Positions 3,893 through 38,038 of a DNA stretch of 38,902 nucleotides are shown in pieces (position 1 is the first letter of the stretch; each line of letters starts with the position of its first letter). This DNA is from Candidatus Cloacimonadota bacterium (GTDB lineage: Bacteria > Cloacimonadota > Cloacimonadia > Cloacimonadales > TCS61), in NCBI GenBank assembly GCA_021735645.1, contig JAIPGP010000029.1, forward strand, positions 1 through 38,902, in the 5' to 3' direction. The position numbers and the translations under genes were made by a program. The notes under the pieces were generated by a model. It ran no database searches, was not told the DNA's origin, and was given only the letters and a program-made list of their open reading frames with translations.

Positions 3893-3913
3893 GTGAGTCG
3901 TGAGTCGTGAGTC
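3893..3913. repeat. Heptamer tandem repeat GTGAGTC x3
   Basis: Three exact 7-bp units lie just after the stop codon of the secreted protein gene, preceded by GTGAGACGGGAAAA. Related heptamer runs with the same flanking words occur at 5443-5477 and 6234-6254. Confidence 0.8.
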
Positions 3914-4003
3914 GAAGAGAAAATTAAATGTAATGTAATCAGACCAGGTCTGGTTACGCAGGTAAAAACAGTGTAATCTATGGCGGGAATTTTGAAGTGG
4001 ACA

Positions 4004-4048
4004 GTGGACTTAGCGGACATAGTGGACTTATAGGACTTATAGTACCTA
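4004..4048. repeat. Nonamer tandem repeat (NNGGACNTA), 5 units
   Basis: Units GTGGACTTA, GCGGACATA, GTGGACTTA, TAGGACTTA and TAGTACCTA lie in the convergent intergenic region. The period (9 bp) and GGAC core match the repeats at 1653-1733 and 20251-20311. Confidence 0.75.
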
Positions 4049-4060
4049 TAAATTGAGCAT

Positions 4061-5442: not shown

Positions 5443-5477
5443 GTGATGAGTGATGAGTGATGAGTGATGAGTGATGG
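5443..5477. repeat. Heptamer tandem repeat GTGATGA x5
   Basis: Four exact GTGATGA units plus one GTGATGG lie in the gap between the DUF4159 and LpxH-like genes, followed by GTGAAGAGTGAGTCGGGA. This is the same word family as 3893-3913 and 6234-6254. Confidence 0.85.
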
Positions 5478-5511
5478 GTGAAGAGTGAGTCGGGAGATGG
5501 GAAAACATTTT

Positions 5512-6233: not shown

Positions 6234-6254
6234 GTGAGATGTGAGTCGTGAGAC
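6234..6254. repeat. Heptamer tandem repeat GTGAGNN x3
   Basis: Units GTGAGAT, GTGAGTC and GTGAGAC, then GGGAAGAGTGA, lie in the divergent gap between the DUF4159 gene and kdsA. This is the third member of the heptamer family in 2.4 kb. Confidence 0.75.
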
Positions 6255-6286
6255 GGGAAGAGTGAATATAAAAAAAGGCGGTGGAG

Positions 6287-19052: not shown

Positions 19053-19127
19053 TGGCTCCTGAAGAGGGATTTGAACCCCCGACCTAGTGGTTAACAGCCA
19101 CCCGCTCTACCGCTGAGCTATTCAGGA
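19053..19127 (-). tRNA. tRNA-Asn (anticodon GTT)
   Basis: A 75-nt cloverleaf with encoded CCA. Acceptor stem TCCTGAA/TTCAGGA, D arm AGCTCAGCGGTAGAGC, anticodon loop CTGTTAA (GTT), T arm GTCGGGGGTTCAAATCC, discriminator G then CCA. It is read on the minus strand and stands alone between serA and the small membrane protein. A promoter-like site lies at 19150-19178 and a terminator directly after it. Confidence 0.97.
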
Positions 19128-20127: not shown

Positions 20128-20250
20128 TGCTTCCTCCAAAATATTTTTGGCATAATTTGATTATAACCCCTTTTCAGGTCAAGATAATTCCTGGGAGTAA
20201 TTGAAGAGCAACAACAAAGCACAATCTCACAAAGGTTAAGTGGCAATATA

Positions 20251-20311
20251 TATAGGTCTTATAGGACTTATAGGACTTATAGGACTTATAGGACTTATAG
20301 GACTTATAGGG
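20251..20311. repeat. Nonamer tandem repeat TATAGGACT, about 6.5 units
   Basis: One TATAGGTCT followed by five exact TATAGGACT units and a partial unit, directly after the stop of the flavin reductase-like gene. It is the most regular of the three nonamer arrays. It has no spacers and so is not CRISPR. Confidence 0.9.
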
Positions 20312-20315
20312 GAAT

Positions 20316-20792
20316 TTAGAATAGTTCTGCTACTGTGAGTGGTGGGGCATCTCCCAGCCAGGCGTATTTGACTTTCCCTACAAAAATAGTGTGGTCTCCG
20401 GATTGCACCTGAGTGATAACTTCGCATTCCAGATTAGCAGCAGCATCTTTAAGGATGGGCAGTCCGGCATATCTACCTTTGAACCACTTACCTTCTATGA
20501 AGTGCATTTTATCTATTTCTGAGCCAGACTTTGTGCCGGAAATACGGACAAATTCAACCTGAGCTAAGGTGGGAAAACATAGATTGAATACTCTGTTTTC
20601 CTGCAGGCATTTATGCGAGAATCTGGTATGCCCGATCGAGATGGCAAACATGACGGGATCAATAGAAGTTTTCATAAACCATTCCAGGGTGATGGGATTA
20701 TATCTGTCTTTATCAACCTGGACAAAAGCAACGACCACTTTCTGGGGATGCTTCACCTTTTTCAGTGCTTCATTTATCTCAATTCTCTGCAT
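20316..20792 (-). CDS. Flavin reductase-like FMN-binding protein
   Basis: 158 residues from ATG 20792, with AGGAG 6 nt upstream; a longer frame to 20825 lacks a signal. The pattern fits the flavin reductase/split-barrel family: VVVAFVQVDKDRYNPITLEWFMKTSIDPVMFAISIG (FMN-binding strands with N-P-I-T and S-x-x-P-M), FSHKCLQENRVFNLCFP, the SGSEIDKMHF segment, and a tail NLECEVITQVQSGDHTIFVGKVKYAW. Such proteins bind FMN and reduce it or serve as electron carriers; the substrate is unknown. It is divergent from dnaX. Confidence 0.85.
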   Translation of the reverse strand: MQRIEINEALKKVKHPQKVVVAFVQVDKDRYNPITLEWFMKTSIDPVMFAISIGHTRFSHKCLQENRVFNLCFPTLAQVEFVRISGTKSGSEIDKMHFIEGKWFKGRYAGLPILKDAAANLECEVITQVQSGDHTIFVGKVKYAWLGDAPPLTVAELF

Positions 20793-35108: not shown

Positions 35109-35486
35109 TTATTTTCTCCTTCTTTTACGACTGAGTTTCCAGATAAAGCCCATTATCATTCCTAAAACGACAATTACATGCTTAAATTGAACTACTGGAA
35201 TAAACCGAGTATTATCCGGGGTAATTTCAAAAACACCGATAGCTTCATTATGCAAGCCACCTCCACCACCTGTGCCATGAGGACCTTCATCCGGCAATGC
35301 CTTATCGCCATCTGTGTCATTGCCACAGCATGAGACTGGCGCACTACCTTCACCACCTCCGAAACCGCCAGCGACCTTGCTTACGGGTATAATTGTTTTA
35401 CCTTGCGCTTCGATCGGGTCACCAAATACCATAGATATCTTTAGACCCTTACCAACCTGATCGTGTAATTTCTGTAAATCAAACAT
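35109..35486 (-). CDS. YtfJ/GerW-family protein
   Basis: 125 residues from ATG 35486 with GGAGG 5-9 nt upstream; the open frame to 35570 runs back through a dispersed repeat and is not the start. The body fits the GerW/YtfJ family: GKGLKISMVFGDPIEAQGKTIIPVSKVAGGFGGGEG, a Gly-rich loop, an EAIGVFEITPDNTRFIPV strand and a C-terminal membrane helix (VVLGMIMGFIW) followed by KLSRKRRRK. In Firmicutes the family is tied to sporulation; here it is a non-sporulating, diderm-type setting, so only the family name is claimed. A CC...D cysteine pair occurs in the loop. A repeat copy lies just upstream. Confidence 0.8.
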   Translation of the reverse strand: MFDLQKLHDQVGKGLKISMVFGDPIEAQGKTIIPVSKVAGGFGGGEGSAPVSCCGNDTDGDKALPDEGPHGTGGGGGLHNEAIGVFEITPDNTRFIPVVQFKHVIVVLGMIMGFIWKLSRKRRRK

Positions 35487-35509
35487 CTTTTCCTCCTTAA
35501 CTTTCTTTA

Positions 35510-35539
35510 TTAACCACTGAACACACCGAACACACGGAA
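35510..35539. repeat. Dispersed repeat copy A (inverted orientation)
   Basis: Contains TTAACCACTGAACACACCG, then AACACACGGAA. Its reverse complement matches about 26 of 30 positions of copy B at 35632-35659, so A and B form an inverted pair 92 bp apart. It lies 24 bp before the YtfJ-like gene start. Confidence 0.8.
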
Positions 35540-35607
35540 ATAAAACTTCTATGAAAAAGAAATTTATCATAATACTAATAACTTAATTAAACTTTTCATT
35601 TTCCTTC

Positions 35608-35659
35608 AATCTTTCTTCTTCTCTTACATTCTTCCGTGTGTTCAGTGTGCTCCGTGGTA
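35608..35659. repeat. Dispersed repeat copy B
   Basis: Its first 23 bp (35608-35630, starting AATCTTTCTTCTTCTC) are identical to 36076-36098. They are followed by CTTCCGTGTGTTCAGTGTGC then TCCGTGGT. It lies directly downstream of the GxxExxY gene. It reads minus-strand as CCACGGAGCACACTGAACAC... Confidence 0.85.
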
Positions 35660-35664
35660 GAATC

Positions 35665-36042
35665 TTACAACACTATTCTCTTGATATCTACTTTGGGAAA
35701 ATGATTAAAATTTACTAAAAAACCTAATTTTAGCTTTGTAGCTTTTAAGTAATTAATCACTTGTGCTGTATGAATTTCTTCCAAATTTTTCACGGCTTTC
35801 AGTTCAACAATGATCTTATTAAAACAGATAAAATCAGGATAATACACCTGCTTAAGTGGCTGTCCTTTATACATCATACTTACTTTGTATTCTGAAATAT
35901 AGGGAATATCACTAAGTTCAAACTCCTTCTGCAGGCATTCTTGATACACTGCTTCCAGAAAACCACAACCCATCTCAGTATATACCTGATAAATTGCCCC
36001 TCGAATCCTGTAACTCTCTTTCTCAAACATTAAAAGACTCAT
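35665..36042 (-). CDS. GxxExxY protein, PD-(D/E)XK nuclease-fold
   Basis: 125 residues from ATG 36042 with GGAGG just upstream; a TTG five codons before is less likely. The name-giving motif GFLEAVY lies in GCGFLEAVYQECLQKEF (about 28-44). The nuclease-fold motif is PDFICFNKIIVELKAVK (about 81-97, Asp...Glu-x-Lys), as in PDDEXK_3 proteins. Their role is unknown. Related genes are often multicopy in environmental genomes and, from memory, sit beside short repeats. Here the gene is bracketed by direct repeats 35608-35659 and 36076-36128, which suggests a mobile or repeat-linked unit (inference). Confidence 0.9.
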   Translation of the reverse strand: MSLLMFEKESYRIRGAIYQVYTEMGCGFLEAVYQECLQKEFELSDIPYISEYKVSMMYKGQPLKQVYYPDFICFNKIIVELKAVKNLEEIHTAQVINYLKATKLKLGFLVNFNHFPKVDIKRIVL

Positions 36043-36075
36043 TTCTCCTCCAAGCAAATCTTCTCATTGTTAATA

Positions 36076-36128
36076 AATCTTTCTTCTTCTCTTACATTTT
36101 CAGTGTGTTCCGTGTGTTCCGTGGTTAA
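36076..36128. repeat. Dispersed repeat copy C
   Basis: Starts with the same 23 bp as copy B (36076-36098), then TTCAGTGTGTTCCGTGTG and TTCCGTGGTTAAA. It lies between the GxxExxY start and the esterase stop (8 bp away). Together with copy B it forms a direct repeat around the GxxExxY gene. Confidence 0.85.
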
Positions 36129-36135
36129 ACACTCT

Positions 36136-37647
36136 TTATTTAATTTCAAATTCCAGTTTATTCACCCAGACAGCTTTTCTATCCTTGTTTTGCAGTACAC
36201 ATTCCTGCATAATATAGCAGTCATAATCAACTATCTCTTCAAACATTTTTTCACCGTTAATGATCACCTGTACTGGAATTCTCAGGTTCACCATTTCAGG
36301 ATTGATATAGATAGCCACTGCCTGCACACGTGATGTTTGCAGATCAAAGATATTACCGTAATAATTAGCTTTCACAGCACCTGAGGGCTGATCATAGAAG
36401 AGAGCATCATTATAGGAAATCTCCGGGAAAGCACCTTCCAGCAGCAGCGTTTCACCTTCCCGATATACAGAAAGGCTCACGGCGTCTCCCCGCTGCTTTG
36501 CCTGCTTCAATTCACCCATTTCATCAATATTTGTGATAGTATTTTCATCCATGGCAATAATAATGTCTTTATCATGCAAGCCCATTTCAGCGGCCAAAGT
36601 TCCTTCTACCACTCTATCTACTAATATCCCGTCACCCTTGAACTCCTTATCATGATAAAAACCAAAAGCAATGCGGGTTTCAGGCAGTTTCACATTATAT
36701 TCCTGCTGCCAGGGATTTTTTTCTGCCAGTGTATCCAGAGCTGTGATCTCCAGCCAGTCACAGCGGTTGTATTCTAAGTCATTAAGGCATTCCCAGTAAA
36801 TATAAGGCTGGAAACTATCTCGGCTGCGTCTGCCAATATCAGTCATGATCAACGGGATGTCTTCAGCAGAATAAGCCCAGTCATGACCAATTCCCCAATA
36901 TTCGCGATAACTGATATCAGCACCGGCACTCAAAGCCAGTTGCATCGTCAAACGTGTACTCGCTGCCGGATATAAGCCATCTTCGTCAGTATTAACTGCC
37001 CGCAGGTGCCGATTCTGCATATTGGCCAAAAAACAGGGTTTCCCGGTAACGTGGGCAGCTACAGACACCATGCCGTTAAGAGGATAAAAGCCGGCATAAT
37101 CATTCGGCAGGCGGTAACTGAAATGAAAAGAGCCAGACCCGCCATCGGAAAAGCCAGTCATATACACACGGTCATCATCAATATTATATCTTTCTTTCAT
37201 AAGCAGCAGTTCTTCTCTGACATGCTGCTCTCCTGCTTTCTCCCACCACATACAATCTTTCCTGCTCATCGGGATCAGCAGCAGCATATTAGCATCTTCT
37301 ACATAATCTACTAACGGATGCTGAAAGATATATTCATCAGGCTCAAAATAATCCTCACGTCCCACTCCCCCATGCAGCCAGATGATCAAGCCATGCCTGT
37401 TATCCGGGTCATAGCCGGAGGGCAGATAATAAAACCAGGGAGAGCTATCTGCGAGGCTATCCATGAGCACTTCACCCTTCTTTGCCACTCTGGAATAATC
37501 ATTGAACATCCTAAGCTGCTGATAAATATCTTCTGAGCTCAGAATTTTATCTTCAAATATCTTCTGCATCGCCGCTCCATTAAAATCCGCCTGCAGGGCA
37601 GTTATCAACAATAAACCTGCAATTAGAATCACAATTTTCTTATTCAT
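36136..37647 (-). CDS. Secreted alpha/beta-hydrolase (esterase-like) with C-terminal PDZ domain
   Basis: 503 residues; signal peptide MNKKIVILIAGLLLITALQA. The hydrolase part (about 60-260): oxyanion-type IIWLHGGVG, nucleophile elbow MTGFSDGGSGS (Ser167), and YWGIGHDWAYS with the probable catalytic His. Then a linker and a PDZ domain (about 330-400: AFGFYHDKEFKGDGILVDRVVEGTLAAEMGLHDKDIIIAMD...). The C-terminus (410-503) is beta-rich. Prediction: a periplasmic or exported esterase or peptidase; the substrate is unknown. ATG 37647 overlaps the preceding CMD gene stop by 8 nt. The Shine-Dalgarno AAGAGGAAAAG comes from the end of repeat copy D. Confidence 0.82.
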   Translation of the reverse strand: MNKKIVILIAGLLLITALQADFNGAAMQKIFEDKILSSEDIYQQLRMFNDYSRVAKKGEVLMDSLADSSPWFYYLPSGYDPDNRHGLIIWLHGGVGREDYFEPDEYIFQHPLVDYVEDANMLLLIPMSRKDCMWWEKAGEQHVREELLLMKERYNIDDDRVYMTGFSDGGSGSFHFSYRLPNDYAGFYPLNGMVSVAAHVTGKPCFLANMQNRHLRAVNTDEDGLYPAASTRLTMQLALSAGADISYREYWGIGHDWAYSAEDIPLIMTDIGRRSRDSFQPYIYWECLNDLEYNRCDWLEITALDTLAEKNPWQQEYNVKLPETRIAFGFYHDKEFKGDGILVDRVVEGTLAAEMGLHDKDIIIAMDENTITNIDEMGELKQAKQRGDAVSLSVYREGETLLLEGAFPEISYNDALFYDQPSGAVKANYYGNIFDLQTSRVQAVAIYINPEMVNLRIPVQVIINGEKMFEEIVDYDCYIMQECVLQNKDRKAVWVNKLEFEIK

Positions 37648-38038
37648 TATCTTTTCCTCTTACCTTCGAGTGTACAGTGTGTTCCGTGGTTAAAGAAATA
37701 TTCTCCCAAAACTCCCAGGCTCGCCTGATATGCGGAATGGTAATACTGCCGCCTACGACCAGTCCGATAGCCAGAGCATCATCCAGTTCTACATCATTCA
37801 CACCTTCCTGACGGCATCTATCCAGATGGTAGCGGATGCAGTCATCGCACCTGAGCACCAGTGATGCCACCAGTCCCAGAAGTTCCTTGCTTTTTGTATC
37901 CAAAGCACCTTCCCGATAAACCTGACTATCCAGACTCAGAAACCGTTTCGTGCTCAATCCCGCCTTCTCCTGCATAAGAGTCTGCAGCCTGAGTCTTTCC
38001 TCACGGAATACATTTACTTTATCAGATTTATCAGTCAT
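37640..38038 (-). CDS. AhpD/carboxymuconolactone decarboxylase-like protein
   Basis: 132 residues. The redox motif CDDCIRYH has Cys64, Cys67 and His71 in an alpha-helical frame (VASLVLRCDDCIRYHLDRC), followed by the DALAIGLVVGGSITIPHIRRAWEF helices. This fits AhpD-like disulfide reductase/peroxidase partners or CMD enzymes. The final 18 residues (SLTTEHTVHSKVRGKDNE) are translated from dispersed repeat copy D, so the tail was probably added by repeat insertion. GAGGAA before ATG 38038. The gene is coupled to the esterase gene (ATGAATAA overlap). Confidence 0.85.
   Translation of the reverse strand: MTDKSDKVNVFREERLRLQTLMQEKAGLSTKRFLSLDSQVYREGALDTKSKELLGLVASLVLRCDDCIRYHLDRCRQEGVNDVELDDALAIGLVVGGSITIPHIRRAWEFWENISLTTEHTVHSKVRGKDNE
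37657..37694. repeat. Dispersed repeat copy D, inside a coding region
   Basis: Reads GTACAGTGTGTTCCGTGGTT, then AAAG; preceded by CTCTTACCTTCGAG, matching the CTCTTACATT flank of copies B and C. On the minus strand it encodes the C-terminus of the AhpD-like protein and ends as the ribosome-binding site of the esterase gene. Confidence 0.8.

Follow-up and report, generated by a model that had tools for sequence, protein, structure and literature searches.

A GxxExxY nuclease-like gene between matched iterated words: a candidate compact mobile element in Cloacimonadota and other phyla

Introduction

Systems in which an enzyme has its own dispersed end-repeats are of a known kind, of which the element described here possibly represents a new class. 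Small dispersed repeats of cyanobacteria were reportedly treated by Elhai in 2008. Heptameric short tandem repeats, intergenic and over-represented, have been described in xanthomonads and cyanobacteria with no assigned gene (PMC4692102). In REP/REPIN-RAYT systems, a small gene is accompanied by its own short repeats in inverted pairs and by many dispersed non-autonomous copies (PMC3116915). In Coxiella, the IVS is 428 nt long and is regarded as selfish; its terminal inverted repeats form a 28-bp stem around an S23/IVP ORF (PMC4990558). Genes of the 23S-IVP family have also been observed in CPR bacteria, where they occur as scattered rRNA insertions (PMC11270868), and near cas4/cas6 (PMC3936711).

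The locus studied here consists of a GxxExxY gene flanked by short repeats, referred to below as words. It resembles REPIN-RAYT in that a small gene is flanked by its own repeats in inverted pairs, in the dispersal of these repeats (in the genome under study, though not in its relative G088) and in having more than one family of repeats, with a separate protein lineage for each. It differs in the enzyme, a PD-(D/E)xK nuclease-like protein (PDDEXK_3) instead of a Y1/HUH transposase, and in the repeats, which are tandem 8-10-nt iterated cores and not palindromic hairpins; moreover, the RAYTs of the same genomes carry repeats other than the GxxExxY words. With the 23S rRNA IVS it shares a size of about 0.45-0.5 kb and a single ORF between terminal inverted repeats, whereas the IVS sits in rRNA and encodes an unrelated protein, and the GxxExxY loci lie between protein genes and have arms of iterated words with no sign of selection for RNA pairing. 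Inverted ends around a gene and dispersed end-only copies are also characteristic of insertion sequences and MITEs, from which the GxxExxY element is set apart by having no known transposase and by ends that are defined by a period and a core pattern rather than by a fixed sequence; a clear target duplication was not found. The small repeats of cyanobacteria and xanthomonads resemble the words of GxxExxY and 23S-IVP genes in being very small, nested, intergenic and built of tandem 7-nt units, but the texts found link no gene to these repeats, whereas 23S-IVP genes are bracketed by 7-nt words and GxxExxY genes by 8-10-nt words in the loci studied here. A limited literature search in open-licence papers returned no prior description of such a gene-word element and no relevant match for the word sequences, and the mentions of GxxExxY in them were incidental. 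To our knowledge, no role has been assigned to the GxxExxY family.

Results

Organization of the window locus

The DNA analysed is a 38,902-nt stretch from a Candidatus Cloacimonadota bacterium (the window). An earlier note on this stretch had placed four copies of a dispersed repeat among its minus-strand genes, two of them on either side of a GxxExxY gene, and all four positions were borne out by the sequence check (words A to D). The features of the region are the following:

35109..35489, minus strand: flanking GerW/YtfJ-like gene (PF09579, profile match)
35505..36135, strand not applicable: segment present here and in G088 and absent in G089, with words A, B and C and the GxxExxY gene; edges +/- about 10 nt
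35510..35539, plus strand: word A, TTA-ACCACTGAA-CACACCGAA-CACACGGAA, in opposite orientation to B and C
35608..35659, minus strand: word B, word proper at 35632-35658, 3' tail AATGTAAGAGAAGAAGAAAGATT at 35608-35630
35665..36057, minus strand: GxxExxY gene (TIGR04256; Pfam PF13366, PDDEXK_3), 130 aa from a TTG start, with an ATG option at 36042
36076..36128, minus strand: word C, upstream of the GxxExxY start, word proper at 36099-36128, 23-nt tail at 36076-36098
36136..37647, minus strand: flanking PHB-depolymerase-like esterase gene with a PDZ domain (profile match)
37657..37694, minus strand: word D, isolated, within the 3' end of an AhpD/CMD-like ORF

Allowing two mismatches at most, the core was matched five times in the window, against a mean of 0.04 (maximum 1) in dinucleotide shuffles. 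Each repeat copy is a 27-nt word composed of three 9-nt units, ACCACGGAA-CACACTGAA-CACACGGAA. Word A, also found in G088, lies directly upstream of the GerW-like gene start and forms with B the inverted pair that had been noticed before, the two being 89% complementary and 92 nt apart; B lies 6 nt past the GxxExxY stop. The 23-nt tail is identical in B and C (35608-35630 = 36076-36098), again as described earlier, and the inverted partner of C is present in G088 and missing at this locus. The reading of B and C as direct repeats around the gene holds at this locus; elsewhere, inversion is the usual arrangement. The grouping of all four copies stands for A, B and C, which go with the GxxExxY gene, and has to be given up for D: because a decayed word occupies its place in both same-genus genomes, G088 and G089, word D is an old and separate copy outside the unit. 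A CRISPR was discarded as a candidate, the four copies being irregularly spaced and in both orientations and the window GxxExxY gene matching no NCBIfam cas model.

The family assignment of the gene, made from the letters alone in the earlier note, was confirmed by profile matches to TIGR04256 (141.5 bits, cut-off 35) and to PF13366 (140.9 bits, cut-off 22). The window protein has the D, ExK and QxxxY residues that mark a RecB/Cas4-type nuclease site and, in an alignment of 105 homologues, D, ExK, Q and Y as well as the G, E and Y of the name motif are invariant in every one. The AlphaFold model has a pLDDT of 96.7 and, when used in Foldseek, gave Cas4 SSO0001 (4ic1) as the best PDB match (E 2e-4), with RecE, LHK-Exo, MGME1 and lambda exonuclease as further near folds, whereas a search of the PDB by sequence gave no match. 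The invariant site, together with the Cas4/exonuclease-like predicted fold, makes it likely that GxxExxY is an active PD-(D/E)xK nuclease. Relatives were not found in phage records, and eight were found in large plasmids predicted to be non-mobilizable.

Matched words bracket GxxExxY genes across phyla

The window genome holds three GxxExxY genes. At the other two the window word is absent and they have words of their own, namely GTTCGTTTTGTTAGTTTTGTTCG on either side of the gene on C55, just under threshold in the formal pair test described below, and ACCGCGAAAGCCGCGAAAGCCGCGAAA-type words upstream with inverted ones downstream of the gene on C115. Within this genome, the layout of the GxxExxY loci recurs and the sequence changes.

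Among 125 genomes of the same phylum, 83 contained GxxExxY, in as many as 16 copies each. For the pair test, loci of this phylum were joined by 80 loci taken from publicly available genomes in other phyla (Bacteroidota, Planctomycetota, Acidobacteriota, Chloroflexota, Proteobacteria, Cyanobacteria, archaea and others), a few of which were again Cloacimonadota; loci were picked by protein score and not by repeats. The 220 nt upstream of each gene were aligned with the 200 nt downstream, both inverted and direct, a score of at least 14 was taken as matched, and 250 other, non-adjacent genes from the same loci served as controls. A matched word pair was found around 119 of 148 GxxExxY genes (80%) and around 13 of 250 controls (5%), with 0-3% in dinucleotide shuffles; the Fisher p of 3e-57 overstates the difference because related loci are not independent, the effect size being independent of p. 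Split by set, the frequency was 84% (of 90 genes) for the own phylum and 74% (of 58) for the other loci. Inverted pairs were present at 70% of own-phylum genes and 66% of those from other phyla, compared to 2-3% in the controls and 0-1% after dinucleotide shuffling, and a direct pair was present at about a third of own-phylum genes, some of which had an inverted pair too. About 20% of the 148 genes had no matched pair. The suspicion that GxxExxY genes lie next to repeats above expectation was substantiated, with words that differ by locus.

A word comprises about three cores of the 7-nt pattern CRC-N-R-A-[GTA] (CRC-NRA-x), spaced core to core by 8, 9 or 10 nt in 145, 156 and 64 cases, respectively; minority types are CAGGATT, ACGGATT and CTAACAAAA. 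The resulting tandem period of 8-10 nt in GxxExxY flanks is rare in controls. The median distance from the end of the upstream arm to the start of the protein domain is 40 nt, that from the stop to the downstream arm is 12 nt, and in 99 of 106 inverted pairs the purine-rich strand points inward, toward the gene. The match between the arms of one gene is imperfect, at about 86% identity, and is closer than 91% of same-class arm pairs taken from other loci. On the protein tree, word class requires 23 changes compared to 48.5 when shuffled, none of 300 shuffles being as low; the own phylum alone gave 13 against 33.5, and in the other-phyla subset the coupling was not significant (12 against 14.4). 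Co-inheritance of the gene with its ends is enough to explain this agreement, and recognition goes one step further.

Gene and words as one unit

In the same-genus genome G089, the GerW-like gene is joined directly to the esterase gene, and this empty site, of the sort that the earlier note had asked after, lacks exactly the GxxExxY gene plus its words. G088 carries the gene together with two inverted pairs of words; close relatives that have the gene and lack the repeats had been named as evidence against a link, and this one has both. Similarity between close copies that occupy different sites mostly ends at or within the words. A clean set from five genomes (L041/L050/L063/L075/L077) is alike from -45/-47 on the left to +37/+43 on the right. 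In 21 cases of close copies for which an inverted pair was defined, homology ended no more than 12 nt from the outer edge of the word in 10 on the left and 7 on the right, several ends falling inside a word. Overruns of more than 25 nt numbered 3 on the left and 2 on the right and mostly concerned true orthologues (L031/L253) and the tandem copies of G001; overall, the edge agreement is loose. We found no consistent target-site duplication: AATGTAATGT stands on either side of some solo words, and most have nothing consistent in common. The flanks of solo words in G088 and G089 were too diverged or rearranged to give a clean empty site, and these genomes have stacked words of their own. The bracketing, the ends of homology and the empty site in G089 support what had been suggested earlier, a repeat-borne unit that is perhaps a mobile element.

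Dispersal of words

Allowing one mismatch at most, the core was found 31 times in the window genome (3.77 Mb, 151 contigs) and the reversed pattern not once, which confirms the repeat as dispersed; most of the dispersed copies are single words away from GxxExxY genes. The CACGGAACA word occurs at about 25 sites of this genome (47 half-words), whereas G088 has three matches, all at its GxxExxY locus (C273), and G089 has one. This distribution is compatible with an origin of the word at the GxxExxY unit and a burst in the window genome. Stacked words of different sequence, joined by a common AATGTAATGTAAGA linker, were observed in three same-genus genomes.

Throughout the 125 genomes, the abundance of CGCAGAT words was unrelated to the presence of GxxExxY (medians 2 and 2, MWU p 0.92), and in the family where these words are common the medians were 8 and 8 with and without the gene. 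A simple driver, by which more GxxExxY gives more words, is not supported by these counts. Among the CGCAGAT-rich genomes, no GxxExxY gene was detected in G009 (120 words), G032 (99) and G004 (93), of which G009 and G004 are 99% complete. Therefore, either the spread of words outlives the gene, or another agent is at work, or GxxExxY genes were missed in drafts. Repeats spread with no link to GxxExxY, which the earlier note regarded as contrary to its proposal, do exist in part, as shown by the far single words and by the CGCAGAT counts.

A second bracketed family

Four-helix-bundle genes of the 23S rRNA IVP family (PF05635) were present in 102 of the 125 own-phylum genomes. Of 33 such genes 23 were bracketed, with a flank period of 7 nt in 45%, 8 nt in 36% and 14 nt in 52%; in other phyla, 20 out of 30 were bracketed, 19 of them by inverted pairs, and a 7-nt period was present in 73%. 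Because the 23S-IVP words are mostly 7-nt both in this phylum and in others, the repeat period goes with the protein family, being 8-10 nt for GxxExxY and mostly 7 nt for 23S-IVP.

Discussion

We consider it probable that the GxxExxY gene and its words constitute one compact mobile element, about 0.5 kb long, whose nuclease would move or copy it via its own ends. Our confidence is moderate for the nuclease-driven mobility, because word abundance does not follow GxxExxY, and higher for the unit. The element would have the layout word > GxxExxY ORF < word, in which the words are the ends. As a Cas4/lambda-exonuclease-like PD-(D/E)xK enzyme, GxxExxY would bind and cut these iterated ends, and cutting there could cause the unit to be moved or copied; solo words would be non-autonomous derivatives of the ends, comparable to the REP sequences of RAYT elements. 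An action of GxxExxY on its own repeats seems plausible because the nuclease site is invariant and the word class tracks the protein tree.

The serious remaining rival is that the words are independent small repeats, autonomous or host-driven like those of cyanobacteria, and that GxxExxY is a passenger or was captured between copies. This would account for the many solo words of the window genome lying away from GxxExxY, for the abundance of CGCAGAT in genomes devoid of the gene with no overall correlation, and for the stacking of different words via the AATGTAATGTAAGA linker in the three same-genus genomes. It does not account for a bracketing that is limited to particular gene families (80% of GxxExxY against 5% of other genes), and random capture is weakened because it predicts neither the match between the two arms, nor their 99:7 orientation, nor the tracking of the protein tree by word class, nor a period specific to the gene family; we regard this explanation as rather unlikely. 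An RNA-level element akin to the 23S rRNA IVS, in which inverted words would form a transcript stem around the ORF that is processed or retrotransposed, is brought to mind by the inverted-repeat layout that 23S-IVP genes share in the same genomes and by the Coxiella IVS, whose terminal inverted repeats and 28-bp stem surround the S23/IVP ORF (PMC4990558). It was rejected as the main reading on the arm mismatches, which have no G-U-compatible (wobble) bias (101 vs 109, p 0.63); direct pairs at about a third of own-phylum genes, the position of the loci between protein genes and a tRNA (19056-19127) as the only Rfam match in the window also make it improbable.

Movement of the words as REP sequences by Y1/RAYT transposases could be envisaged, given that Y1_Tnp genes are present in 99 of the 125 phylum genomes, the window genome included. 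However, a CRC word was within 120 nt of 0 of 28 Y1 genes tested, the inverted flanks of the Y1 genes themselves are other sequences, several of them palindromic, and G032, with its 99 CGCAGAT matches, has no Y1 match, so that this mover is largely refuted and has a very slim chance of being the right one. It is also highly improbable that the words are passive or regulatory intergenic repeats (terminators, RBS-like tracts or slippage microsatellites) with an incidental association to GxxExxY: they are indeed intergenic, and slippage can yield short tandem repeats, but control genes of the same loci are without words, the words differ by locus yet match across the gene, and gene and words are jointly missing in G089. 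As a general account, passive repeats are refuted by the bracketing test.

The compact element made of GxxExxY and its words may, as a tentative extension that we hold possible and short of probable, belong to a new class of minimal mobile elements, in which a single 120-130-aa protein is enclosed by inverted ends of short tandem units, and the period and core pattern are kept (8-10 nt for GxxExxY, 7 nt for 23S-IVP) while the sequence diversifies with the protein. If this is true, many of the dispersed 7-/9-nt intergenic repeats of bacteria would stem from elements of this class, and a role would be found for two large orphan protein families. GxxExxY and 23S-IVP are both common and orphaned, and the repeats that bracket them offer a concrete, testable function. 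The unit may be among the smallest mobile elements with an enzyme of their own, and iterated-core ends co-varying with the protein would represent a natural code for nuclease specificity.

Words apart from GxxExxY genes, and further GxxExxY units

In the window, at 37640-37694, the AhpD/CMD-like ORF takes its C-terminal codons from word D, an isolated word copy, and a decayed word was found at the matching position in both genomes of the same genus (G088, G089). Words of the CGCAGAT class gave approximately 93-120 pattern matches in G004, G009 and G032, three genomes of the phylum in which no GxxExxY gene was detectable. Several GxxExxY units, comprising tandem and truncated copies, were observed within approximately 35 kb of G001 (G001:C1:786000-822000; L254, L255), near sugar-nucleotide and surface-polysaccharide-like genes.

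Other bracketed genes and repeat arrays

The 23S-IVP four-helix-bundle genes parallel the GxxExxY genes in being bracketed, with a repeat period of 7 nt rather than 8-10 nt; their inverted tandem repeats were seen in many phyla (L324-L353, L131-L159, L034-L036). The window has heptamer arrays of this same type as well as arrays of a 9-nt unit other than the GxxExxY word, and its genome has a compound array:

3893-3914, 5443-5492 and 6234-6255, heptamer arrays GTGAGTC / GTGATGA
3988-4059 and 20237-20326, 9-nt arrays GGACTTATA / GTGGACTTA
G000:C133:1-1700 (L030, genome of the window), compound array of five tandem units, 228-398 nt each

Each L030 unit consists of several different words (9-nt, 7-nt and CGCGAAA type) with AATGTAATGTAA linkers between them.

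Y1 transposase genes of the phylum (L294-L323) often carry their own matched repeats on both sides, inverted in 8 of 28 cases and direct in 15 of 28, several of them palindromic; CRC words were found at none of the 28.

In G088 and G089, stacked words with differing core sequence are connected by a common AATGTAATGTAAGA...TTTTA linker (L279, L282, L290, L281), and this stacking looks as if successive insertions had entered one kind of site.
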